Of a DNA stretch of 64,000 nucleotides, positions 29,536 through 62,931 are shown one piece after another. This DNA is from Strix aluco. Lineage: Eukaryota; Chordata; Aves; Strigiformes; Strigidae. The DNA lies in assembly GCF_031877795.1 (NCBI RefSeq), contig NC_133970.1, forward strand, positions 46,379,287-46,443,286, in the 5' to 3' direction. Made by a program: the position numbers and the translations under genes. The number at the start of each line of letters is the position of its first letter. Position 1 is the stretch's first letter. The notes beneath the pieces are model-generated. The model made no database searches. It was not told the origin of the DNA and saw nothing but the letters and a program-made list of their open reading frames with translations.

Positions 29536-31659
29536 TTAGGTGCTACTTTCATCTTCATTCTTGTGAACAATTTCTTTTTCACAATTTCGACATTTATTAT
29601 AGCACTCACAATAATGATTTTCGCGTGGCATAATGCATTCACAATAATTTTCATCTTCATTATTAGATACACTTTCATATTCTACTCTCGAGGTTAAAAT
29701 AAGCAATTTAGCTGCGTCAAACCATTCTTTAATAAAATGAAAAATATAGCGTAATATACAAGGCCCAAATATAAGTCCCAGGATCAACATAATAAGCGGT
29801 CCTGCTAAAGCCGACAACAAAGTGGTTAGCCAAGGTGAAACATTAAACCAGTTTTCATACCATGACCTGCCCGCTTCACGATCCTTTCTACGTTGGTCTA
29901 ACCTTTTCCGAAGTTCGGACATGGTGTCTTGGACGACTCCCGTATGGTCAGCAAAAGAACAACATTCTTCACTGAGAGCTACACATAACCCTCCTTCCTT
30001 CAAAAACAATAGGTCTAATCTTCTTCTATTTTGTAGTACTACTTCTGATAAAGACTTTACTGAAGTGGCTAAATTTTGGATAGATTGTTCTATTTTTGCT
30101 AAATCCTCATCTACAGCCATTTGCAAACCTTGTAATTCCTGACCTTGTACTAGAGAGGCTATACCTGTGCCTGCTCCAACTCCACCCGCTATCAGTAGTG
30201 TAGCTAGGGTTACCGCTGTAATTGGTTCTCGTTTTTGTCTATTCCGGTCTCCCTCAAAGTGATGCAATATTTCTTCCGAGGTGTGATAGATTAGACGAGG
30301 AACAATAATTACCTGCATGCAAAACTGAGATTGATCAAACACATTTAGAGATAGACAAGGCGTTATTCCGATGTCTGAACAAACCCATTTAGCTCCTGGT
30401 GTCGGGATAGCCCATTTGTCCTTTTGATTTTTGTGTTTCTCTATATTGGTATTAGTGACTGTTCGGTTGCATAAAGGCTGATACTTTTCGGGCACTGTAC
30501 CTATACATTTTCCTTGACCCATTACTAATTGAATAGTAATTCCTTGCGTATGATTCCTCCGGCCATCCCATGGACATTCTCGTGGGTTTGAACCGTTAGA
30601 CCATCGAATCCTTCCTGGTTTTCCAATTGCCTCAAAATATGGTGGTCTAATATTATAACATAACCAGCATTCTTCAGTTAAATTTGGTTTGCTTTCATTA
30701 AGGGTACGATAAGAGGCTTGCATTAGATTCCATAAAGGGTCTTTGGATTCTAACAACTTTAAATCCCTGGATAAGGAGAATTCAGTCATGGTACCATTAG
30801 CTGTTTTCAAGAAGGAGTCTGGGGAAGGGGTTGCGATGTTCACGGGGACAACCTTTTTTTTAGAGAAAGTGGGTGGATTCAGGACCGGATTTGGTCCTAC
30901 TGGTAAAGGATCGTGGGGTATCCTTTCTTTTATTATTTTGAAAAAGCTTCCTCTATCTGCTCCAGGTTCCCAATATCTAATTCCCCAGGTACGGCCAATT
31001 AACCATGTGTCATCTTCTGGTTGTTTAACTTCAATTTCTATTCTGTCGCATTCTGATGGAGATGATTTCACCCCCCTTACGGATCCCCAGACCCCGGAGC
31101 CGTCAGATCCATGTTGTGGTGGAATGCAACCTGGAGGTCCCCAAGTGATACTTATATATTTGTCTCCTTTTGTTGGCCAGTCTGAGGCTATTGTCTCGCA
31201 ACCCCAATAACCGCAATAAAAATGGCCTGGATAGTTGCAATAACTCTTTCCAGGATTGGAAGCTGGACACACATAGAAGGCTTTGGAGTTGGCTTCCGTC
31301 GCCTCCCAGCCTCTCTGGATATCGACCGGAATCATTGAGACTAATTGGACAGTAAAATTCCAATTTCCCGGAGAGGTCTGATTTTGTATTAGTCTAGATT
31401 CCTGTAAGTTATATAGTTTCCAGAGCATTGGTTCATGGGGGTTTCCATTTGCTTGGGTTATTATCAATAACAAAACTAGCGGTACACCAGAAAAAAAGGC
31501 GTCTGTCAATTTTGCCAATTTAAGTATATTTTTATCATCCCTGGGGAAGTTTGGCCATTGTTGCTTTTGTGTCCCATTGTTCTGATTCTTTTCTCCACAG
31601 TTTGTTCCTCCTCTGCCTCGCCCGTCGACTCGGTTGCTTCGAGCCACGGGGTGTACCAT
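29536..31659 (-). CDS. env: envelope glycoprotein, open (707 aa)
   Basis: Class I fusion envelope of the gamma-like provirus, uninterrupted. A hydrophilic, basic N-terminal stretch of about 50 residues precedes a hydrophobic signal segment (about 51-72). The surface unit has many N-glycosylation sites and a CWLC motif, which in gammaretroviruses isomerises the disulfide bond to the transmembrane unit. A furin-like site RQKR is followed by a hydrophobic fusion peptide. The transmembrane unit has the LQNRR-type immunosuppressive region, the CX6CC motif and a membrane anchor near the end. The tail is long and unusual, with two YCEC repeats and an acidic end. The frame overlaps no other retroviral gene except a short ORF at its 5' end. 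It is probably expressed from a spliced transcript, which I cannot confirm. Confidence 0.95.
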   Translation of the reverse strand: MVHPVARSNRVDGRGRGGTNCGEKNQNNGTQKQQWPNFPRDDKNILKLAKLTDAFFSGVPLVLLLIITQANGNPHEPMLWKLYNLQESRLIQNQTSPGNWNFTVQLVSMIPVDIQRGWEATEANSKAFYVCPASNPGKSYCNYPGHFYCGYWGCETIASDWPTKGDKYISITWGPPGCIPPQHGSDGSGVWGSVRGVKSSPSECDRIEIEVKQPEDDTWLIGRTWGIRYWEPGADRGSFFKIIKERIPHDPLPVGPNPVLNPPTFSKKKVVPVNIATPSPDSFLKTANGTMTEFSLSRDLKLLESKDPLWNLMQASYRTLNESKPNLTEECWLCYNIRPPYFEAIGKPGRIRWSNGSNPRECPWDGRRNHTQGITIQLVMGQGKCIGTVPEKYQPLCNRTVTNTNIEKHKNQKDKWAIPTPGAKWVCSDIGITPCLSLNVFDQSQFCMQVIIVPRLIYHTSEEILHHFEGDRNRQKREPITAVTLATLLIAGGVGAGTGIASLVQGQELQGLQMAVDEDLAKIEQSIQNLATSVKSLSEVVLQNRRRLDLLFLKEGGLCVALSEECCSFADHTGVVQDTMSELRKRLDQRRKDREAGRSWYENWFNVSPWLTTLLSALAGPLIMLILGLIFGPCILRYIFHFIKEWFDAAKLLILTSRVEYESVSNNEDENYCECIMPRENHYCECYNKCRNCEKEIVHKNEDESST

Positions 31660-31937
31660 CTTCTCGGCAGCAAGGGAATTCTTCAGGAGAACAGCTGTTT
31701 CGGGCTTTCTGCCTGTTTATATAGGCTTCCCACTTTACAGCTTTAACTAATGGGATGAGGCAAGGCACAGTTGGTACTTCCCTTCTTACACTTTATAGCC
31801 AAGATTTCAGTTACAAAGGGGATTGGTTCGTTGGAATAGTAACAATAATATTGAGGGTTTATTCCTTTGGTAAAAATTTCCCACCACTCATGGGATTCTT
31901 AAATAATTTCTTGTTTAGACTCTAATTGCTTTGATTT

Positions 31938-32153
31938 TCACTCAGTGAGAGTTCTTTGGATTTTCCAACACTGTGTGCAAACCCCTATTGAAGGGTATCC
32001 ACATTCACAGTGAGTCCACCATTTATCCTGGCATACCATACACTTGGAACAAGCAAACGGATAACAATTGCGGTTCAAATTATTATACTTAATTCGTATA
32101 TCTAGAGTGTTTATATCAACATATTTTCTATATTCAATATTGTGTGGTTGCAT
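31938..32153 (-). CDS. small Cys-rich ORF between pol and env (71 aa)
   Basis: An ATG-started frame lying wholly in the interval of about 640 bp between the pol stop (32303) and the env start (31659), same strand as both. Its C-terminal half has eight cysteines with spacing C-x4-C-x2-C-x2-C-x7-C-x-C-x7-C-x2-C plus a WW pair, which looks like a zinc-binding module. The N-terminal half is polar and Tyr/Asn-rich. Simple gammaretroviruses usually have no gene here, and in them env overlaps the end of pol. I recognise no family. It could be an accessory or transcription-regulating gene as in complex retroviruses, or a chance ORF in a spacer. The cysteine pattern argues mildly for a real protein. 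Confidence 0.45.
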   Translation of the reverse strand: MQPHNIEYRKYVDINTLDIRIKYNNLNRNCYPFACSKCMVCQDKWWTHCECGYPSIGVCTQCWKIQRTLTE

Positions 32154-32302
32154 GAGTTTAACAATTTCCTTTAGTACATTTTGTATGCTTCCATATATAA
32201 TATACGAAGAGAGAAATAATTATTGCGAATATAAACAACAATACACACTTTATACCAAAAGGTAATGCGACAAAATGATCAAGCAAAGTTTTTATCATTA
32301 CT

Positions 32303-35300
32303 TTATCTTTTCAGGGTTATCTTGGTGTCACCTGGAGTACTGATTACTTTCCAGTGGGGTCTTGTCACTGGGCCTTTAACGCGACTGGCATGAGTCCATC
32401 CACGCTCAGCAGTCCGGACAGCTGTTTCTGTTGTAAGCAAAATAAGATAAGGTCCCTCCCAATTGGGTTTTAGGGTTTCTTCTTTCCATGTTTTAACTAA
32501 TATCCAGTCCCCCGGTTTGAAAGTGTGAATTTTTAAGTCCAATGGAGGTCGTTGCACAATCAGCCCATGTTCCCAAAGTTTGTTACGATGCTCTGCTAAT
32601 TGTGAAACATATTCATTAATTACACGATCTCGAATTAAAACATTTGTTTGTGGACTTTCAATTCTATAGGACATTCCATATACCATCTCAAACGCTGATA
32701 TTCCTATATCTGCTCGGGGTCTGGTTCTGAGTATTAATAGTGCCATGGGTAGGCACTTGATCCATGATAGTTTGGTTTCTATCATTAATTTAGTCAAAAT
32801 AGTTTTGATTTCTCCATTCATCCTTTCAACTTTTCCCGAACTTTGTGGATGCCATGGCGTATGGTATTCCCACTTAATTCCCAGGTTTTCTGCTAGATCT
32901 CTAACAATTTTTGACACAAAATGTGTTCCTCTGTCTGAGTCGATTACATCAGGTACTCCATATCTAGGTATAATGTGTTCAAGTAATACCTTAGTAACCT
33001 GGTTAGCAGTTGCCTTGGAGGTAGGAAAAGCCTCAACATAATGTGTTAAATGATCCACCATTACTAATAAATATTTGTAACGCCCTACTCTGGGTAGTTC
33101 AGTAAAATCCACTTGTATGTGTGAGAAAGGTCTGTATGCTGAGGAACGTCCTCCAAGAGGTTTTTGTCTCGTGTTGTTTCGATTAACCTTTTGACAGGTC
33201 TCGCAGGCTGCTGTGACTGTCTTTGCTATATTATATACGCCTATACAGGCAAACTGTTGATTGAAATGATCAACTAACGCCTGGGTTCCCCAGTGGGTTT
33301 TACTGTGTATTTTTGAAAATATTTCGAGTGCTATGCCCTTCGGCAAGACTTCTCTCCCATCTGGTAATACGTACTTACTATCCCGTTCCTTAGCTCCCAT
33401 TTGTTCTAGTTTTTCCTTTTCTGCAGACTCAAAACTCAAATTTTTACTAACAGGTACTGGTTGTATAGTCAAAATCGTATTATAATTGCCTGCCACTCGT
33501 TTTGCTTCTATATCAGCTGCGTTATTTCCCCTGACTTGATAATTTGTACCTCGCTGGTGTCCCTTTATATGTACAACTGCTATTTTATTCGGCACTTTCA
33601 ATGCCCCCAGAACTCGCCGAATTAATTCCGGGTGTATCAATTCTTTTCCTTGTGAGTTAATAAATCCTCTTTCCTCCCATATTTTTCCAAAGGTATGTAC
33701 CACTCCAAACGCATAGCGTGAGTCTGTATATATAGTTCCATCCTTTCCCTTCAGTGACACTAATGCTTTCCACAATGCATACAGCTCACAGGCTTGAGCT
33801 GACCAGCTGGCACTCAGGGGGCCTGATTCTATTGTCTTAAATTCTCCTTTTTCCAACTTAACGATGGCATATCCGGACAATCGTTTACCTTCCACTATTC
33901 GTGATGACCCATCTATAAATAATACTTCCCCACATTGTAGTTCTTCTTCTTCTAAGTCTGGCCTAATGCGTGTCTGTTGTTCAATTGTTTGAAAACAATT
34001 GTGTAATAGTTCATTACCTTCTCCTGGGTACAAAAATTCAGCGGGGTTAACTGCTCCAATAGTTTTTAAAGAAAGTTTAGGGGATTCTATGAGTATTCCT
34101 TCATACTTCAATAGTCGGTTATCTGTAAGCCATTTTTCCGCTTTTTGTTGTAACACTCCCCTGATGTTATGAGGTGCATATAAGACAACTTCTCCATTAA
34201 AGGTAATGCGATTCGTTTCCTCAAGTAATAAGGCAGCAGCGACAATGATTTGTAAACAACTTGGCCAACCCCTGCTCACAGGATCCAACAGCTTCGATAA
34301 GTATGCCACCGGCTTCTTTTGTCCGGCCCATTCCTGAGTTAATACTCCGAATGCCGTTCCTTCATGTATGTTAACGAATAAATGGAATGGCCGCTTTAAA
34401 TCTGGGAGGCTTAAAACCGGTGCTTGACTTAGCTCCCTTTTGAGATTAGCAAACTGCTCTTGATCCCGAGGGGTCCACTTGAGTATTTTGTCTTTAGACA
34501 ATTGTTCGTATAAAAATTTAACTTTAAAGCTGTAGTTCTCTATCCATTGTCTACAATACCCAAATAGCCCTAATGCCTGCCGAATTTGCCTCTTAGTGAC
34601 AGGCATAGGTAATTCTAGAATTCCTTTAATGCGCTCTGGGTCCAATATTTTTTTGCCATTAAACAAATAATGTCCCAAATATTTCACTTTTTCCTCCACA
34701 AATTGTAACTTCTCTTGTGATACCCGTAGTCCCTTTTGTGCAAGAAAGTTTAGGAGTCGAATGCTTTCTTTTCTTACATCCTCCTTATTGTTCCCTGCTA
34801 TGAGCAGATCATCTACATACTGTAACAGCACGTTTCCCGTTTGTACCTGGTATTCTTTTAAGAGTTCTTCCAGGGCCTGTCCAAACAGATTAGGGGACTC
34901 AGTGAACCCTTGGGGGAGCACGGTCCATCTCAATTGCTGTCTTCGGCCTGTCTCTATGTCTTCCCATTCAAAGGCAAAATAATCACGGCATTCTTCTGCC
35001 AATGGACAGGCCCAAAAGGCATCTTTTAAATCAGCCACACTATACCAGGAGTTATGGGGTCCTAGCTTGCTTAACAGTGTGTATGGATTTGCTACTACAG
35101 GGAACCGGGTGATAGTTCTTTTGTTTATTTCCCTTAAGTCATGTACAAGCCGATATTTCCCATTTGGCTTCCTTACAGGCAAAATAGGAGTGTTAAAGGG
35201 TGACATACAAGGTTCTAAGATTCCTTGTGTTAACAATCGATCAATTTCTGGTTTTAATCCCCTCCATCCTTCTAAGGATATAGGATATTGCCTTACCCTT

Positions 35301-35785
35301 ACAGGTATGTGGGGTTCGGAAATTTGAATTTTAATCGGTGGGATTTTTAATTTACTTATTGTATCCGGAGAGTACCAGACATCGGGGTTGATTTGTTTTT
35401 GATCATCCATGGTCAAGGGATAAGCAGACACCGTTAGCTCTTGATTTTCTACTTTGATTTCTAATTGCAGTTCAACAATTAAATCCCGTCCCAACAGATT
35501 AAATTCTGCTTCAGGGACGAGCAAGAGTTCACCCATTCCAAATTTATTTTCAGTTTCGAATATCACATTTTTGATTTTGCTTACTTTAAAGGGTTCTCCT
35601 TTTGCCCCTATTACTTGTACTTTTTCAGGGGAAGCTTTACATCCCTCAGGTATTTGCCTAATAGTCGATTTCTCAGCCCCTGTGTCTACTAAAAAGGTGA
35701 ACTCTTGTTTATGGGGACCTATTTTTAACTTTATCAAGGGCTCATGATGACTCCGGTCCCCTAAAATATAGAGCCCCTGACTCTC
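32303..35785 (-). CDS. pol: Pol polyprotein (protease-RT-RNase H-integrase), open
   Basis: Continues the gag frame after the UAG at 35786-35788 and is open to 32303 (over 1140 residues). Order: aspartic protease with the LVDTGAEKS active site near the start (about 35680); reverse transcriptase with LPQGFTESP and the catalytic YVDD (about 34815); RNase H with FIDGSS (about 33905) and a YTDSRYA segment; integrase with an HHCC zinc domain (about 33280-33170), a D,D-35-E type core (VDFTE, DSDRGTHF, GKVERMNG) and a C-terminal GPY-type domain ending in the HASRVKGP pattern of gammaretroviruses. No frame break is visible. In this virus group it would be made as a Gag-Pol fusion by readthrough. Confidence 0.96.
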   Translation of the reverse strand, partial: ESQGLYILGDRSHHEPLIKLKIGPHKQEFTFLVDTGAEKSTIRQIPEGCKASPEKVQVIGAKGEPFKVSKIKNVIFETENKFGMGELLLVPEAEFNLLGRDLIVELQLEIKVENQELTVSAYPLTMDDQKQINPDVWYSPDTISKLKIPPIKIQISEPHIPVRVRQYPISLEGWRGLKPEIDRLLTQGILEPCMSPFNTPILPVRKPNGKYRLVHDLREINKRTITRFPVVANPYTLLSKLGPHNSWYSVADLKDAFWACPLAEECRDYFAFEWEDIETGRRQQLRWTVLPQGFTESPNLFGQALEELLKEYQVQTGNVLLQYVDDLLIAGNNKEDVRKESIRLLNFLAQKGLRVSQEKLQFVEEKVKYLGHYLFNGKKILDPERIKGILELPMPVTKRQIRQALGLFGYCRQWIENYSFKVKFLYEQLSKDKILKWTPRDQEQFANLKRELSQAPVLSLPDLKRPFHLFVNIHEGTAFGVLTQEWAGQKKPVAYLSKLLDPVSRGWPSCLQIIVAAALLLEETNRITFNGEVVLYAPHNIRGVLQQKAEKWLTDNRLLKYEGILIESPKLSLKTIGAVNPAEFLYPGEGNELLHNCFQTIEQQTRIRPDLEEEELQCGEVLFIDGSSRIVEGKRLSGYAIVKLEKGEFKTIESGPLSASWSAQACELYALWKALVSLKGKDGTIYTDSRYAFGVVHTFGKIWEERGFINSQGKELIHPELIRRVLGALKVPNKIAVVHIKGHQRGTNYQVRGNNAADIEAKRVAGNYNTILTIQPVPVSKNLSFESAEKEKLEQMGAKERDSKYVLPDGREVLPKGIALEIFSKIHSKTHWGTQALVDHFNQQFACIGVYNIAKTVTAACETCQKVNRNNTRQKPLGGRSSAYRPFSHIQVDFTELPRVGRYKYLLVMVDHLTHYVEAFPTSKATANQVTKVLLEHIIPRYGVPDVIDSDRGTHFVSKIVRDLAENLGIKWEYHTPWHPQSSGKVERMNGEIKTILTKLMIETKLSWIKCLPMALLILRTRPRADIGISAFEMVYGMSYRIESPQTNVLIRDRVINEYVSQLAEHRNKLWEHGLIVQRPPLDLKIHTFKPGDWILVKTWKEETLKPNWEGPYLILLTTETAVRTAERGWTHASRVKGPVTRPHWKVISTPGDTKITLKR

Positions 35786-35788
35786 CTA
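35786..35788 (-). promoter_or_regulatory. gag UAG stop, candidate readthrough site
   Basis: Gag ends in UAG and pol follows in the same frame. The next bases on the minus strand, GAGAGTCAGGGGCTC, resemble the purine-rich spacer after the murine leukaemia virus gag UAG and are followed by G-rich and C-containing stretches that could form a pseudoknot. Gammaretroviruses decode a few per cent of such UAGs as an amino acid. Confidence 0.75.
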
Positions 35789-37209
35789 TTCTGCTTTCAA
35801 TATTTCCTCATCTCTGATCCTTTCTCTGCAATTCTTCTTTATGTGTCCCTTCTTTCCACAGTAAAAACAACATCTCTGTTCCTTCTTTACTACTGCGTTC
35901 CCTTGTTTTATTCCAGCAGATCTGTGTTCACCAGTCCGCCCGTTGCGATCCTCTCTGACAGCTGCTACCATCATTTTTACTTGTCGCTTGCTGCTCTCTT
36001 CTTCCCGCCTTACGTAGACTTTCTGAGCTTCCCTCAATAATTCATCCAACCCTCTATTTTGCCAGTCTTCTAGCTTTTCAATCTTTTTTCTGATATCTTC
36101 CCATGATTTTGCTACAAACTGAGTTTTTAGGAGCGCTTGCCCTAAAGGGTCGTCTGGATTTACCCCAGAGTACAGTTGAAGGACTTTCCTCAGTCGTTCC
36201 AGCCACTCAGTAGGGCTCTCATCTTTCTTTTGCATTTCATTAAATGCTTTATTGATATTCTGGCCACGGGGTACTGCTTCTCTAATCCCCTGAATTACTA
36301 TAGTTCTCAGATCTTGCATATGAGTTCTATGCACCGGATCCTGATTATCCCAGTTAGGTCTTTGGAGTGGCCATTTGATATCTGCTTGGGGTCCCTGGGC
36401 ATGCTGAACATCCCACAGTCTCATTCCTGCTCGTCTAATCATATCTCTTTCCTCGGTAGTAAATAATTGACCAAGGATAGATTGCATCTCATCCCAAGTA
36501 TAAAGGTTTGGTCCCAAAAATTGATCTAATCTTTCTGCCACTCCAAGTGGGTCCTCAATCAAGTTTCCCATCTCGGTTCTTTTAAAATCTCGTAGGTCAG
36601 CCGAGTTTAGGGGTACAGAAATATATCCAATCATAGGCTGAGGTCCCCCCATGGGCATTTCCCTTAGAGGATACATCTGAGCTGCCCCTTTTTGACTTCT
36701 AGTCATGCGTCTAGGAGGAGGGGAAGACCCTTGTTCCGACTCCGGTGGGGGAGTGGGAGCTCTGGGGACCTCGGGAGGGGCTGCGGGAGCAGGAGGAGGA
36801 ATGTAAGGAGGGGGGGTTAGAAGGGTTTCGTCTAACTCTTCCTGCTTTTTCTTTTGTTTAGTTTTTACTTCATTCAGTGGGTAAAGTTTAGCTCCCGGTC
36901 TTTTTATCCATACTTCCGCATACTGACTCTCCTCCGGGTTAAGGTTTTTTTTTTTTTATTATTGACCCAGAGGTTTAATTGCTGTCTTACCCAATCTTCT
37001 TCTGACCCATAGACTGGCCAAAAGGTATTTTTAGAAATCTTCTTCCCTCCCCATATCTTAGTACAGTATTCTATCATTTTCTGCTTATCTTTCCATAGGG
37101 TTCCAGGGAAATACCTCCAATTGTCTAAGACATATGCCAAAGGGGTATTCTTAGGTACAGTGTGTACCCTTCCCATGGGAGTCGAAGGCTTGCTGCCCTT
37201 CGCCCCCAT
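35786..37209 (-). pseudogene. gag: gag, split by a homopolymer frameshift
   Basis: The Gag start is MGAKGSK at 37209, with Gly2 for myristoylation. The matrix part runs to 36904 in this frame. The downstream frame, open from about 36940 to 35786, holds a proline-rich segment with a PPPY late-budding motif at 36803-36814, a capsid with the YSGVNPDDPLGQ region, a charged KKIEKLEDW stretch and one CCHC zinc knuckle (CFYCGKKGHIKKNC). The two frames meet at a 13-base T tract on the plus strand (36945-36957), so a single-base slip would explain the break. The start at 37239 is GTG and is less likely. Confidence 0.93.
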
Positions 37210-54064: not shown

Positions 54065-55958
54065 TCACAGAATTTTTTATCACAGAATCATCAAGGTTGG
54101 AAAAGACCTTGAAGATCATCCAGTCCAACCATTAACCTAACATTGACAGTTCCCAATTACACCATGTCCCTAAGCGCTATGTCAACCCTACTCTTAAATA
54201 CCTCAAGGGATGGGGAATCCACCACCTCCCTGGGCAGCCCATTCCAACGCCCAACAACCCCTTCTGGAAAGAAATACTTCCTAATATCTAGTCTAAACCT
54301 TCCCTGGTACAGCTTGAGGCCATTCCCTCTTGACCTATCGCTTGTTACTTGGTTAAAGAGACTCATCCCCAGCTCTCTGCAATCTCCTTTCAGGGAGTTG
54401 TAGAGGGCGATGAGGTCTCCCCTCAGCCTCCTCTTCTCCAGACTAAACAACCCCAGTTCCCTCAGCCGCCCCTCGTACGACATGTGCTCCAGACCCTGCA
54501 CCAGCTTTGTTGCCCTTCTTTGGACACGCTCGAGTGATACAATGGCCTTTTTGTAGTGAGGGGCCCAAAACTGAACACAGTAATCGAGGTGCGGCCTCAC
54601 CAGTGCCGAGTACAGGGGCAAGATCACTTCCCTGTCCCTGCTGGCCACGCTATTTCTGATGCAAGCCAGGATGCCATTGGCCTTCTTGGCCACCTGGGCA
54701 CACTGCTGGCTCCTGTTCAGCCGGCTGTCAATCAACACCCCCAGGTCCCTCTCTGACTGGCAGCTCTCCAGCCACTCCTCCCCAAGCCTGTAGCCCTGCT
54801 GGAGGTTGTTGTGGCCCAAGTGCAGCACCCAGCATTTGGCCTTATTGAAACTCCTCCAGTTGGCCTCAGCCCATCGCTCCAGCCTGTCCAGGTCTCTCTG
54901 CAGAGCCTCCCTACCCTCGAGCAGATCAACACTCCCACCCAACTTGGTGTCGTCTGCAAACTGACTGAGGGTGCACTCGATCCCCTCGTCTAGATCATCA
55001 ATAAAGATGTTAAACAGGAGTGGCCCCAAAACTGAGCCCTGAGGGACACCACTCGTGACCGGCCACCAACTGGATTTAACTCTGTTCACCACAACTCTTT
55101 GGGCCCGGCCATCCAGCCAGTTTTTTACTCAGCGAAGCGTGTGCCCTTCCAAGCCACGAGCAGTCAGTTTCACCAGGAGGATGCTGTGGGAAACGGTGTC
55201 AAAGGCCTTACTAAAGTCAAGGTAGACAAGGTCCACAGCCTTTCCCTCATCCAATAAGCAGGTTGCCCTGTCGTAGAAGGAGATCAGGTTTGTCAGGCAG
55301 GACCTGCCTTTCATAAACCCATGCTGACTAGGCCTGATCCCCTGGTTGTCCATTATATGACTTTTAATGGCACCCGAGATGACCTGCTCCATGACCTTCC
55401 CTGGCACCAAGGTCAGACTGACAGGTCTATAGTTTCCTGGATCCTCCTTTCTGCCTCTCTTGTAGATGGGTGTCACATGTGCCACCCTCCAGTCCAATGG
55501 GACCTCCCCAGTTAGCCATGATTTCCGGTAAATCATGGAAAGTGGCTTGGCGAGCACATCTGCCAACTCTTTCAGCACCCTTGGTTGTAACCCATCCGGT
55601 CCCACAGACTTGTGTGCATCCAAGTGGTGTAGCAGGTCTCTGACCACCTCCTTTTCAACTGTGCTGACCTCATTCTGCTTCCCCTCCCCATCTCCCATCT
55701 CATGAGGCTGGGTGTCCAGGGAACAGCCAGTTCCACTGCTAAAGACTGAGGCAAAGTAGGCGCTGAGCACTTCAGCATTTTCCTCATCCTTAGTTACCAT
55801 GTTTCCCTCTGCATCCAGTAAAGAGGGAGATTTTCCCTAATTCTCCTTTTGCTGTTAACGAATTTATAGAAACATTTTTTATTATCCTTAACAGCTGTAG
55901 CCAGGTTGAGCTCTAGCTGTGCTTTGGCTCTCCTAATGCTCTCCCTGCATAACTTCAC
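54065..55958 (-). mobile_element. CR1, minus strand, 3' piece
   Basis: The 3' end is at the left (TCACAGAATTTTTTATCACAGAATC). Reads through the 3' half of ORF2 until it is cut by the class II provirus at 55959. It continues at 62932-63213. Confidence 0.93.
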
Positions 55959-55976
55959 TGTGGGAGACATGGACAT
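54157..55976 (-). pseudogene. CR1 ORF2 reverse transcriptase, broken
   Basis: Frames 55129-55800 (RT with GNYRPVSLT and DFSKAFDTV motifs) and 54157-55092 ([11 protein letters not shown], the catalytic FADD, and a complete C-terminal region of 311 residues) are in the same phase, separated by a stop where the CR1 reading continues. A further piece before 55800 is in another frame. The part nearest the ORF2 start lies beyond the provirus, at 62866-63156. Confidence 0.92.
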
Positions 55977-56337
55977 GCAAACAACCAGATTGATTAAGCA
56001 ATGCCAATTTTATTATGGTGGAACAAGCCTTTTATAATGCAGGTGAAAATCACATGGTACAATCACATGGTACAATTCTTTCTGATTGGACAGTTAGCTT
56101 TGCACATGCTCCTTAAGCTCTCTTCTGATTGGATGAGAACTGCCACATCGACATTGTACAAACTCCTTCTCCGCCCAGACCCACACCCTGAAGTTGTTTA
56201 ACTTCCTGGGTTCTTCCTCATTCTTCCAGGGCCATTTCATCACATCCTTGCTGACGCTGAGGCTTTACCAGTCTTGCTCATATGCAGGATTGCTCACATG
56301 CCCATTTCCCCGCAGGAAATCCATCCGAATCCCCACA
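55959..56337 (-). repeat. 3' LTR of the class II provirus
   Basis: 379 bp. Plus strand starts TGTGGGAGACATGGACA and ends CGAATCCCCACA. Close to the copy at 62547-62925, with several differences. The complement of CCTTTTATAATG near 56030 gives a TATA-like or polyadenylation region on the minus strand. A polypurine tract (minus strand) lies at 56338-56357. Confidence 0.93.
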
Positions 56338-57484: not shown

Positions 57485-58160
57485 TGTGGCAGGTGCATCC
57501 GCCCAGTAAAAGCAGAGCTTCCTGGCTGCTGAAACATGGCAGCTTCTGGCTGTCTTTGTTTTCAAGGTCTCGTGGTAGTTGAGACCTTTGACCAATGGGA
57601 GCCACTATTGACTACAGGTCAGATTCGGTCTGGGTATAAACGGAGTCCCCTGGGGGAGCCATTTTGAGCTCATCCCCCTGGAGCAGTACGCTGCGGTCAG
57701 AGGACTCTCTCCTTGGGTTCGGGACGCCTCCCAGGGAAACTCCTCGAGGTGCCTTGGGTCGGGACGCTGCCCTGAGCAGGTCCTCAAGGTTGAGAGCCCT
57801 CACTTTCCAGGTGAGTGATAGAGCGTTTTGGGTTGTCGTTAAACCCTAGGGAGTGAAGTTTTGTTTACGTTTGGGGTTGCCATTAAACCCCTGGGGTGTG
57901 AGGCTTTGTTTTATGTTTCGGGTTCCGTTAAACCCCAGGAAGTGAAGTTTGCATTTAGGGGTTGCTGTTAAACCCCTGGGGAGTGGGGCTTTGTAAAGTA
58001 TTTTGGGTTATTGTTAAACCCCAGAAAGTTATTCTGTTCTCCTCTTGCGGACATTCGGATCTGTAATCTACGGAGAGCTGACTGGTGGTTTTAATAAAAA
58101 ATAAATTTATTTATTTTTTTAAATTGGTGGTGGGTTGCTCATTTGGAAGCCTCCGTAACA
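57485..58160 (+). mobile_element. solo LTR with five hairpin repeats
   Basis: 676 bp, TGTGGCAGGTGCATCC to GCCTCCGTAACA, with the 4-bp TSD GGGT at 57481-57484 and 58161-58164; 4 bp suggests a gamma/ERV1 integrase. GGGTATAAACGG near 57631 is a TATA box and AATAAA is near 58095. Between them AGGTGAGT (about 57809) resembles a splice donor, followed by five tandem units at 57830-58022. Confidence 0.85.
57830..58022 (+). repeat. five tandem GGGTT...AACCC units
   Basis: Units at 57830-57846, 57873-57891, 57920-57936, 57958-57976 and 58005-58022. Each has the form GGG(G)TT-loop-AACCC(C), separated by similar spacers with GTGAAGTTT or GTGRGGCTTTG. The period is about 40-47 bp. Confidence 0.85.
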
Positions 58161-58164
58161 GGGT

Positions 58165-58775
58165 TAGGCAAGCTTCAAAACACAGCATACTTAAAAAAGT
58201 TTCACAGAATGCTTGAAACAATACAGCAGTTACAGTTACTAGAGTAAGCTAATTGCAGTACCCATAACGAAGGGATATGACGAAATACTACAAAAGTAAA
58301 TAGTAAGGCAAAATATGAAATAGCACACTCACTTAATGGGGTACTAACATTCAGATCCACAATTGCTGGGGAACCCTGGATGCAGCGAGAATTTAGAGTG
58401 CCCTTCCTCGCAAACCGGAAATCCTACGCGATGCGTCCATCCGTAGGTGAGGCATCCAACATCGCTGCAAGCAGGTCCAGCCTCATATATCTAAATCAGC
58501 AGGCCAAAATAACTGGCAACTTTCTTTGAGCGGAAACATCTGCTCTCATCCTCCTGTTGGGTTCCACCCAGAGCCTGGCCACCACTCAAGGGGGAAAACC
58601 AAGGGAGTTTCTAATAAGGTTAAACACTTGGGTTCTTCATACTGCTAAACAAAGAAAGTTGAATACACACATTCTTATAGCATTTCATCCTTATTAATAA
58701 CTACATTTTGTCTAAGCTACATCATCTTTCACTAGTGACTAGTAAGCCTATATATTTCATCAAGGAGTTGCAACT
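58165..58775 (-). mobile_element. LTR family D, diverged copy
   Basis: The part 58395-58680 is clearly homologous to the LTRs at 23949 and 59341 (AAATCCTACGCGATGCGTCC, GGTGAGGCATCCAAC, then GTTGGGTTCCACCCAGAGCC), with many substitutions. The ends are not clear. It could be the 3' LTR of the second class II element. Confidence 0.65.
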
Positions 58776-59340: not shown

Positions 59341-60178
59341 TGTTTTGCTGATTAAGGATACCAATTAAACCCAGACACCAGAGTGAAAAGAGTAGGCGTA
59401 CTTTACTGGTAATAACCAAGTAATGTAACAGCGTAATACAGAAAACATGCAGTAAGAAGAAGCAGAACAGTGCACTTAAAGCAACAAACAGAGTAATGCA
59501 TCAAATCATTACTACACGAGAGAGAGAGAGAGAATAGTAATTAAGAGAAATACATCACCACTTGCATATATTATCATCATCATCCAGATCCGCAGGCGCT
59601 GGGCAGCCCCGGTTACAGCGAGGATTTGGAGAGCCTGTCCCGGCAAGTGGGAAATCCTACGCGGTGCGTCCACCCGTAGGTGAGGCTTCCAAAGTCGCTG
59701 TGAGCGGGTCCAGCCTTATATACCAGAGATCGACAAGCCAGAATAGCTGGCACCTTTGTTTTGAGCGGAAAGTTTCTGGTTTCATTCTCCTGTTGGATTC
59801 CACCCAAAGCCTGGACAGGGCTCGGGGGGGAACCAAGGGAGTTTCTAACAAGGCCAAATACTTGGGTTCTCAGCCTTGAACAAGGCTAAACAAGGGAAGT
59901 TGGATACATTCTCTCCCCTCTACTGATTATATTTTGTCTTTCACCAGCAAGTTTACATATTTTATTAATGACTACATGCTAAGTTAACAACTTCAGCTTG
60001 GGGCCTGTTGTTCAGGCTGCAGTATTTCAATGCTTTAGCACTTTTTACACCAGCATAAGTGGGTTGTTATAACTTAGTACAATACCTACTAGCACAATGG
60101 TTATCAGTTATAAAATATACAGGATTCATCTATAGGTCAACTCTGGCTTGGGCCTGTTGTCCAAGCCTTAGCACTTCA
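59341..60178 (-). mobile_element. solo LTR family D
   Basis: 838 bp, TGTTTTGCTGATTAAGG to CCTTAGCACTTCA, with AGAAT at 59336-59340 and 60179-60183. Almost identical over long stretches to the LTR at 23949-25193, but lacking its nested insertion. Inserted into the remnant of the second class II element. Confidence 0.92.
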
Positions 60179-60205
60179 AGAATATATAAAGCCCTTGCTA
60201 GTTGA

Positions 60206-60436
60206 TTATGTGGTGCGTCCAGAAAATCCCCCCTTCTTTGTTTTATACCGTTCACCTATTTCAGCCCGTTTTGCTGGTTCAAAGGCTGTGAGGGTATCGG
60301 CAGGATGGTCGTGGTTTCCGCACCATTTAAGTAACCTTCGTACAGAAGTTTCATTATAAGTTATCCCTCTCTTAGAGAGTATATGCAGCAGGAGTCTGAC
60401 AGTGGCCGTCTCCTCTGTGGGCTTGTTCTGCCCCAT
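60206..60436 (-). pseudogene. matrix (Gag N-terminus) of a second class II element
   Basis: MGQNKPTEE start (Gly2, possible myristoylation) followed by a helical matrix domain (VRLLLHILSKRG, VRRLLKWCGN). It is homologous in layout to the matrix at 62114-62326 but clearly different in sequence, so it is a different family. It runs into non-gag sequence after about 70 residues. Its ATG lies within the tRNA-Lys-like segment at 60430-60461. Confidence 0.8.
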
Positions 60437-60461
60437 GCTCTACCGACTGAGCTCGCCGGGC
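60430..60461 (-). other. 5' half of tRNA-Lys(CUU)-like sequence
   Basis: Minus strand GCCCGGCGAGCTCAGTCGG followed by TAGAGCATGGGGC. Compared with my recollection of vertebrate tRNA-Lys(CUU) it matches 30 of the first 32 nt (differences at nt 8 and 31), covering the acceptor 5' strand, the D arm and the 5' side of the anticodon stem. The ATG of the anticodon stem is the gag start. Neither the rest of the tRNA nor a B box follows. Confidence 0.85.
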
Positions 60462-60480
60462 TCCTTATTAATAGCTAGGC

Positions 60481-62326
60481 TCATAATAAGTTGTTAAAAA
60501 ATGGTGCAACCACTTCACACACTGCAGCGGCATAGGCTGCAACGTTAGCCTGTTGCATTCCTCTGTTGGTTAATTCAATCATGTCAGCTACAGATGCTCC
60601 CTGTGGGAGGGTCACTAACAGCTGTTTGGTAGATGGATTGGCATTTTCGAAGGCCATTAACTTAAACATGTTTTCCTTCATCTCTTGGGTCATGTCAGGT
60701 TGTTGTTCTAGAGAGTCATAAAGACAATCTACAAATTTTGAAAAAGGTTCATTAAGTCCCTGTTTTACTGTTACAAACTTGTCTTGTTTCTTTCCTTCTG
60801 TGTCAGGTACAGACATTAGGGCCTGACAGGCTATTGACTGTGATAGCCGTAACACTTATTTGGAAAAATTGACCTGTAGATCTTCTGCGGCGAAGGGCCC
60901 TGTACCCAATAGCATTTGTGCTTGGACAAGATAAAGGGGATCACCCTGTGGGCGCGGACGAACCTGCTCTTCGTTAGCTAACTTCGTCCATGCGCTTTCG
61001 AATAGCATTTTTTGAGATGGAGTTAAAATAACTGCCGCTATTTGATCGATATCTTTTGGGATTAACAATGATGACGAGAAGATATAGTTAATGATTTGCT
61101 TGGTTAATTGATGGTGGAGACCATTTTGAACTACTGAAGCCCTAAACTTTTCAAGCAGCTTCCAATCTAAGGGATCCCACTCATTGGCACCAGCAACAGT
61201 ATTAAAAGAAACTGGAAATGCTTGTACGCTTTCTGGGATAAAAGATCCTTCTACTATAGCATCTCTAATAATTCCTTTTCATCGGTGCATAGCTACAGAG
61301 GCACTCTGCATCTGTGAAGAGAAAAGATGTGAAGCTGCAGGGTGAGATGGTGGGGGCACAGTCGCCGTCTGTGATAATGACGAGAGGAAGGAATTAGTAG
61401 CAGGCACGGGAACGGAATATTCGAGCGATGGATCAGGAGGAGCAGATGGTTGTAGTCCCATGTTTGACGAAAAGGTATATGGTTTCTGCTCCATCTTCTC
61501 TTCCTGTGTTGCAGCCAATTTCTCAAGGCTGTTTACAATCTGCAGGAGTAAAGTTTCAGTGTTTGAAGAGCCATGTTTTGAGGCGGGGGTGTGTTCTTCT
61601 GTGGTGTTGCCTTGTGAGGGAGGGAGAGGCGGGTACAAGTCCCTGCCCTCATCTGCGTCCCGCCCACTACTGGAGTCGTTAGTCTCTTTCGGTTTCTCCT
61701 CAGTCCCTTTCCCGTTGGCATCAGATACACTTCTGCTGTTTCCAGCCCCTGATTGCACAGTTTTGGGTTTAGCCCCCGCTGCTCACCGCGGTCCCGGCGG
61801 CACAATCGATAAGGCAAACGGATTTTTCGGCTGACCCAACGTGGCGGGAGCCGCAAGCAGCGTAGAGCACCCCCCTCCCTCGTCTCTCTGGGGCGAGGGG
61901 ACCGAGGGGGGGGAAAGGGCCCCTCTGGCCGTGGCTGGGGCAGGGCGGTAGCGGCGGCAGTGGTGGCATGGCTGATATATCAGAGTTAGAAGCCGCTCCG
62001 AGAACTGCAAAGGCAGAAGCCGCAGCCGCACGCTCACTACTCCTCTCCTGCAATGTTTCTCGGATTAATTTCCATAGCGTGGTGTAACCGCTCACTTCTT
62101 TTGCCGACTTTCCTCAATCACTAACCGAGTCCCATAGCTGTTTCCCTATGGCTTCCCAGGTAGCTGCTTCAAATACAAGCCCTACACTGGGGATAAGTCC
62201 CTTCTCTCGGCTCCACTTTAATAAGCCTTCTAAATTGGACTTGTCATATTTTATCCCTCTCACGGAGAGGATCAGTTGGAGGAGTTTCACTACTGCTTGC
62301 TCATCTCTAGTAAGCGTAGACCCCAT
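60481..62326 (-). pseudogene. gag: class II gag (matrix to capsid), broken
   Basis: Matrix 62114-62326 (MGSTLTRDEQ start, LLKWSREKGLIPS). Proline-rich linker at 61769-62095. A further linker with PPLPPS and PSAPP motifs at 61279-61758. Capsid at about 60481-61278, including VQAFPVSFN, WKLLEKFRASV and the major homology region QGLNEPFSKFVDCL. Stops at about 62114, 61279 and 60856 and one frame change near 61760 inactivate it. The frame ends after capsid; nucleocapsid zinc knuckles are absent because the second element begins there. Confidence 0.9.
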
Positions 62327-62526: not shown

Positions 62527-62544
62527 TCCCTGTGTTGGGTGCCA
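62527..62544 (-). promoter_or_regulatory. primer binding site, tRNA-Lys-like, mutated
   Basis: Minus strand TGGCACCCAACACAGGGA, two bases from the LTR. 13 of 18 bases match the Lys-1,2 primer site seen at 47541. Two of the mismatches are G-to-A at CpG positions. Confidence 0.6.
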
Positions 62545-62546
62545 TA

Positions 62547-62925
62547 TGCGGGAGAGATGGACATGCGGACAACCAGATTGATTAAGCAATGCCAATTTTA
62601 TTATGGTGGAACAAGCCTTTTATAATGCAGGTGAGAATCACATGATACAATCACATGGTACAATTCTTTCTGATTGGACAGTTAGCTTTGCACATGCTCC
62701 TTAAGCTCTCTTCTGATTGGCTGAGAACTGCCACATCGACATTGTACAAACTCCTTCTCCGCCCAGACCCACACCCTGAAGTTGTTTAACTTCCTGGGTT
62801 CTTCCTCATTCTTCCAGGGCCATTTCATCACATCCTTGCCGATGCTGAGGCTTTACCAGTCTTGCTCATATGCAGGATTGCTCACACGCCCATTTCCCCG
62901 CAGGAAATCCATCCGAATCCCCACA
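62547..62925 (-). repeat. 5' LTR of the class II provirus
   Basis: 379 bp, TGCGGGAGAGATGG (first TGT mutated to TGC) to CGAATCCCCACA. Pairs with 55959-56337. Confidence 0.93.
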
Positions 62926-62931
62926 CTTCAC

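Follow-up and report, generated by a model that had tools for sequence, protein, structure and literature searches.

A tRNA-Lys(CUU) 5' half at a gag junction of a mosaic class II endogenous retrovirus family in Strix aluco, probably a patch copied from primer tRNA

The provirus and its features

The window analysed here, a stretch of 64,000 nucleotides of Strix aluco DNA, contains a class II (betaretrovirus-like) endogenous retrovirus (ERV) that is bounded by LTRs, flanked by a 6-bp target duplication and equipped with Gag_p24 domains; its LTR pair is 97% identical over 300 nt, and its features are compiled in Table 1. The gag capsid ORF of one class II element, with PF00607 and PF19317 at the capsid end (the latter in the ORF 60481-60855), stops just upstream of a segment resembling half a tRNA, and within this segment lies the ATG (60436-60434) of a 76-codon ORF that begins with MGQNKP. 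A separate provirus at 29536-36955, likewise on the minus strand, has a Gag_p30 resembling that of gammaretroviruses, pol, and an env frame of 726 codons with a match to TLV_coat.

Table 1. Features of the mosaic provirus (window coordinates)
Feature	Position	Strand	Basis or remark
tRNA-Lys(CUU) 5' half, nt 1-30	60432..60461	-	29/30 here, T8->G; 30/30 at 18 places
GCCCGGC, tRNA nt 1-7; upstream-switch microhomology, 7 nt	60455..60461	-	native to parent A, 7/8 fetched; L088 GCCCAGC
tRNA nt 8-22 (D arm)	60440..60454	-	neither parent gives nt 8-11 (TAGC) or nt 20-22 (TAG; MGQNK leader GGGC)
AGCATGGG, tRNA nt 23-30; downstream-switch microhomology, 8 nt	60432..60439	-	native MGQNK gag start, 15/16 sampled
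5' LTR, mosaic provirus	62547..62925	-	LTR comparison
3' LTR, mosaic provirus	55959..56337	-	LTR comparison
Target-site duplication GTGAAG, upstream copy	62926..62931		flank reading
Target-site duplication GTGAAG, downstream copy	55953..55958		flank reading
Primer-binding site region	62527..62544	-	13/18 to tRNA-Lys(CUU); 18/18 in L037, L041
Capsid of 5' element, Gag_p24 N- and C-terminal domains, two ORFs	60481..61278	-	domain search
MGQNKP matrix-like ORF, 76 codons + stop	60206..60436	-	matrix segment internally deleted relative to L055; homologue P0001
16-nt direct repeat TAGyTATTAATAAGGA, first copy	60462..60477	-	between CA and tRNA half
16-nt direct repeat, second copy	58688..58703	-	L052, L053: CA runs straight into following sequence, without tRNA/MA insert
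Later insertion, probably solo LTR (inferred)	59341..60177	-	missing from other family copies compared
Later insertion	57486..58159	-	missing from other family copies compared

Identity of the tRNA segment

The minus strand at 60461-60430 reads GCCCGGCgAGCTCAGTCGGTAGAGCATGGGgC and matches the 5' half of tRNA-Lys(CUU) in 30 of 32 positions, whereas the best of 200 first-order Markov controls modelled on the window reached 22/32. The segment is thus a tRNA-Lys(CUU) 5' half, as originally predicted, and the match is well above chance. In the same genome tRNA nt 1-30 are matched at 100% in 18 places; position 8, which is G in the window, is T in 28 of the 31 rows of the junction alignment, the remaining three being the two rows of the window and L003, which has A. 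No whole tRNA, and hence no complete cloverleaf of a functional tRNA gene, was detected by ARAGORN in the window, and Rfam listed none in 59500-61500, with sub-threshold matches only; both results are expected because the segment is half a tRNA. A genome search with the tRNA-Lys sequence did not find a nuclear tRNA-Lys(CUU) gene; a genomic copy of tRNA-Lys(CUU) with CCA (L058) is identical over nt 1-56.

A multi-copy family

The genome searched was a 1.41-Gb assembly of 202 contigs that includes the window. A 431-base junction query returned 376 candidates, all 40 that were scored reaching at least 95%, and the join of capsid (CA), tRNA half and MGQNK start was the same in 31/31 printed loci, corresponding to 30 places because the window appears twice, as L001 and L002. 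A probe of tRNA half plus MGQNK matched 53 places, as did a capsid-end probe, and 50 of these coincide when the lists are compared by eye. The possibility of a private junction, by which the original prediction could have failed, is therefore dismissed.

The copies examined are LTR-bounded proviruses. Among 11 copies, five have exact 6-bp target-site duplications and one has a duplication matching at 5/6 bases, while the other five have none. Since six copies have target duplications of their own, they are independent insertions; C118, C177, C182, C30 and C27, by contrast, share the same flanks with no target duplication and are therefore copies of one insertion. Spread by tandem or segmental duplication alone is accordingly rejected for the former six and accepted for the latter five. 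The LTR pairs are 95-98% identical in the five individually inserted copies measured and 87-88% identical in the group with shared flanks. All 25 copies L006-L014 and L016-L031 are located ≈ 10-150 kb from a contig end; identity over 3.4 kb is 98.5-99.9% for L006 and 13 others, and the contig-end copies read further (C118, C177, C182) have identical flanks. This arrangement suggests a subtelomeric duplication carrying one provirus.

Origin of the gag start codon

The matrix (MA) sequence is far more widespread than the tRNA half: the MA probe matched 163 places, ≈ 110 more than the 53 tRNA-bearing ones. Sixteen native MGQNK copies, chosen as lying outside the tRNA list, were sampled from the 100 MA-probe matches listed, and in all 16 an ordinary leader ends in GGCAGC directly followed by the ATG. 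The protein search gave a single match, P0001, a protein from an ENA contig with the same matrix start. It had been asked whether all members with the MGQNKP matrix carry the tRNA half, and proposed that the start codon was drawn from the ATG of the tRNA; neither idea survives. The gag start codon is the virus's own, as follows from the 16 native leaders, and ATGGG is therefore a microhomology shared by virus and tRNA. A family that natively carries the tRNA half is likewise rejected.

At the gag start, AGCATGGG is present in 15 of the 16 sampled leaders (L072 differs). In 12/16 it is preceded, at a distance of 3-4 nt, by TCARTCGG, which matches tRNA nt 12-19, and exact TCAGTCGG occurs in 3/16. 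A tRNA-like element native to the MGQNK leader was considered and rejected: for six leaders the resemblance outside AGCATGGG did not exceed that of shuffled sequences, 59 to 207 of 300 shuffles reaching the real value.

An earlier junction and its parents

Three of the 53 tRNA places, L055, L056 and L057, have no coincident capsid end. The junction of L057 is flanked by an insert of other sequence that matches window 54079-54257. L055 reads ...CTCTTACCTGCCTGCGGCCGAGCCCGGCTAGCTCAGTCGGTAGAGCATGGGGCAG... and has a longer matrix ORF of 152 codons; here the tRNA joins the MGQNK leader to a sequence referred to as parent A, in which an MGQNK-like tail is fused to a capsid. In L056 an LTR, probably flanked by a 5-bp duplication (4/5 bases, L076, by eye), breaks the L055 context, and L056 shares its matrix deletion with the window. 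The L055-type junction is thus represented by one clear copy, plus L056 with its LTR insertion.

Capsid sequence immediately preceding the L055 tRNA, used as a probe, gave 76 matches at ≤2 mismatches (reversed control 13). All eight parent A places fetched continue ...GCGGCCGAGCCCRGCACYGC... with no tRNA, and seven of them contain GCCCGGC, identical to tRNA nt 1-7 (L088 has GCCCAGC). In about half of the 100 listed among 160 places, GCCGAGCCCGGCACCG follows, by eye, a different, MGQNK-tail-like upstream sequence that resembles the tail of two native MGQNK copies, L095 and L096. GCCCGGC is therefore present without the tRNA, which disfavours the view that parent A arose from the tRNA form by deletion. 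The two native tails read, L095 and L096, have ATCTGGC and not GAGCCCGGC at the matching place, so that the MGQNK family varies at this tail position. Downstream of the matrix, the CCAAAAGCGGCAG region is common to L055, parent A, L095 and L096, and this side of the exchange may therefore reflect ordinary homologous switching.

The original prediction that the segment marks the junction between two class II elements is borne out to the extent that the capsid of another element lies upstream and the MGQNKP ORF downstream. As to the join itself, L055, in which the tRNA follows a different capsid fusion, makes the CA/tRNA join of the window look like a later rearrangement, and after L055 and L056 the creation of the tRNA half at the present CA junction is rejected. 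L052 and L053, which lack the insert, are either deletion products, or the window family is a recombinant of such an element and an L056-like RNA.

Primer-binding sites and other tRNA-Lys copies

The 5' LTRs of 11 copies were sought for a survey of primer-binding sites (PBS), and ten were found (C3 gave none). The PBS matches tRNA-Lys(CUU) at 18/18 in L037 and L041, at 16/18 in L043 and at 11-13/18 in the seven others, five of which belong to one duplicated insertion. For the proposal that tRNA-Lys(CUU) primes the class II provirus, two of ten family 5' LTRs thus offer an exact site, the window's own PBS scoring 13/18. Given the two exact sites, packaged tRNA-Lys(CUU) would be expected for some family members. 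Within this one family the PBS differs (L033, L035, L037, L039, L041, L043, L044, L048, L051 and the window; sequences other than the exact tRNA-Lys(CUU) site include TGGCTCCCTCTGCAGGGA), which suggests changes of primer.

Beyond the 18 places, the tRNA-Lys search found 17 further ones, 13 of which were looked at. In nine of these (L058, L059, L081-L085, L098, L099) CCA is followed by A-rich sequence that appears LTR-like by eye, L081 being unclear; an LTR alignment was made for L058 only. L079 and L080 are an identical pair with CCC in place of CCA, and L086 and L097 are unlike the other 11 places. L058 (G000:C40:21840000-21840700) is a complete tRNA-Lys(CUU) with CCA in antisense orientation that abuts a family LTR (≈ 90% identity) via the primer-binding site. 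Its positions 57 and 58 are changed (A58->T), and A58->T is also found in L082; a T at position 58 is the mark expected of reading through m1A58. Passages of PMC13191261 tie full-length copying of the primer to missing tRNA modification. To judge from its sequence, L058 looks like a full-length primer tRNA copy fixed in the genome. In L059 (G000:C1:74011900-74012700), tRNA-Lys nt 7-73 and CCA lie between two apparent inverted LTR copies (by eye), forming a palindrome centred on the primer tRNA. The long or full copies L079-L085, L098 and L099, which likewise adjoin sequence appearing LTR-like by eye, may represent a recurrent class of aberrant reverse-transcription products. Another patch is possibly seen in L097 (G000:C5:65032160-65032360), which covers internal tRNA-Lys positions (nt 10-46, 95%) and shows no evident LTR in the 201 bases read.

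Proposed mechanism and alternatives

Very probably the segment is a patch for which primer tRNA served as template while co-packaged class II ERV RNAs were being reverse-transcribed. When parent A, the MGQNK leader (parent B) and the tRNA are aligned, an insert from a third RNA is seen between two viral sequences, with seven diagnostic letters and with microhomology at both switch points, 7 nt (GCCCGGC) and 8 nt (AGCATGGG); by formula, overlaps of these lengths are expected at random breakpoints with chances of ≈ 4e-4 and ≈ 1e-4, respectively. Only seven tRNA letters (nt 8-11 and 20-22) are diagnostic, because the MGQNK leader also has TCARTCGG near AGCATGGG; these seven letters and their exact spacing nevertheless make the tRNA much the best template. 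With nt 1-30 matched in full at 18 places and parents that lack the tRNA, the template switch onto tRNA put forward in the original prediction is the best explanation.

Minus-strand synthesis would have proceeded through gag of the MGQNK element towards its 5' end as far as the start codon, switched at the 8 nt of AGCATGGG onto nt 23-30 of tRNA-Lys(CUU) and continued to the tRNA 5' end, where a switch at the 7 nt GCCCGGC would have led into a second RNA, one in which capsid and MGQNK-like tail had been joined beforehand. This double switch would yield a product resembling L055. Deletion of a matrix segment (L056) would have come next, followed by further recombination that supplied the present capsid of the window family and the 16-nt repeat; the mosaic would then have retrotransposed to several sites, the contig-end copies probably being multiplied by duplication. 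The direction of synthesis is not readable from the product; we infer it, as well as the strand, the whole mature tRNA (not a fragment) as template, the origin of the parent A tail and the order of events.

The same three partners could also have met by a plus-strand switch, in which plus-strand strong-stop DNA, extended past m1A58 to a full copy of the primer tRNA and ending in the complement of GCCCGGC, pairs with parent A and is copied back before a switch at AGCATGGG. The copies of tRNA-Lys with CCA joined to LTR-like ends (L058 and others) indicate that such DNAs were made, and the 7-nt pairing falls exactly at the tRNA 5' end; this route is nonetheless unlikely, as it needs a rarer intermediate, and in the passages of PMC13191261 full copying is associated with unmodified tRNA, only the shorter stop products being active templates. 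Direct recombination of parent A with the MGQNK leader, the few added or altered bases being merely tRNA-like, would draw GCCCGGC from the former and TCARTCGG and AGCATGGG, nearly in the right register, from the latter, and is compatible with a leader likeness outside AGCATGGG that does not exceed shuffles. However, TAGC would have to arise, GGGC to become TAG, and all seven letters and their spacing to coincide with tRNA-Lys(CUU), for which the letters alone give ≈ 6e-5 (4 to the power of -7), so that we consider it very unlikely.

Capture of a tRNA-derived SINE or of a genomic tRNA gene in DNA, to which the tRNA A box might point, is extremely improbable: the segment begins at tRNA nt 1 and stops inside the gag microhomology, with the gag ORF directly after nt 1-30, and B box and SINE body are missing, as only nt 1-30 are there. 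A further proposal, compatible with an origin as a patch, is that the tRNA half serves as a tRNA-like or start-codon element under selection. The ATG beside it is kept in 31/31 alignment rows. Translation of 11 copies with the tRNA half gave the 76-codon ORF in seven; the reading frame ends after 32 codons in L003 and L056, is shifted in L054 and extends over 152 codons in L055. Against this, the tRNA half is missing from native leaders, the ORF, itself truncated, is found ≈ 1.9 kb downstream of the first gag ATG, and in eight window-type copies the tRNA segment (5/30 sites variable) compares with 11/90 upstream and 32/228 in the ORF. The same eight copies give no sign of coding constraint on the 76-codon ORF, with 14, 11 and 7 variable sites of 76 by codon position. 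A function under selection is thus highly improbable.

The patch copied from primer tRNA, then, preserves in a natural germline an instance of reverse transcriptase taking the tRNA species of its primer as internal template. In a single genome the two parents, the microhomologies of both switches and an early product can all be recovered, and the product has since multiplied. A broader and rather doubtful idea is that in this lineage co-packaged ERVs repeatedly exchange gag across a primer tRNA, recombination on that template being a regular route to new mosaic families, because primer tRNA is packaged, lies near the leader, and shares short words of its end and stems with gag starts; if so, the LTR-linked tRNA-Lys copies would be a second manifestation of this promiscuous copying. 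As a search rule, we suggest looking for sense-orientation tRNA 5' halves inside ERVs, which would give the frequency of bridging by packaged tRNA.

Comparison with known systems

The tRNA-Lys-like element of HIV-1, situated near the 5' part of the viral RNA, is a case of mimicry by viral sequence, with a proposed function; the segment described here, in contrast, is an actual copy of a tRNA with no sign of function. Mosaic endogenous retroviruses are common, to go by the title of PMC4724089, and the present family is a mosaic as well. In the literature searched, much of it in extract, we found no ERV junction reported as bridged by half of a primer tRNA. The closest parallel is retroviral patch repair with host RNAs and microhomology, a 7SL patch included, as presented in passages of PMC4997597: in such tertiary-template insertion, as proposed here, two unrelated viral sequences are bridged by a packaged host RNA that happens to share microhomology with them. 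In the 7SL RNA case (Hajjar and Linial 1993, as related in PMC4997597), a recombinant provirus similarly contains a copy of a small host RNA that is packaged, but the RNA is a different one and the case is experimental, whereas the present one is natural. Unlike the patch repair described in those passages, the patch here stems from the primer species of tRNA and its product is a multi-copy germline family; as far as our searches show, what is new is that primer tRNA forms the bridge, and does so in a natural family of germline copies that has since multiplied.
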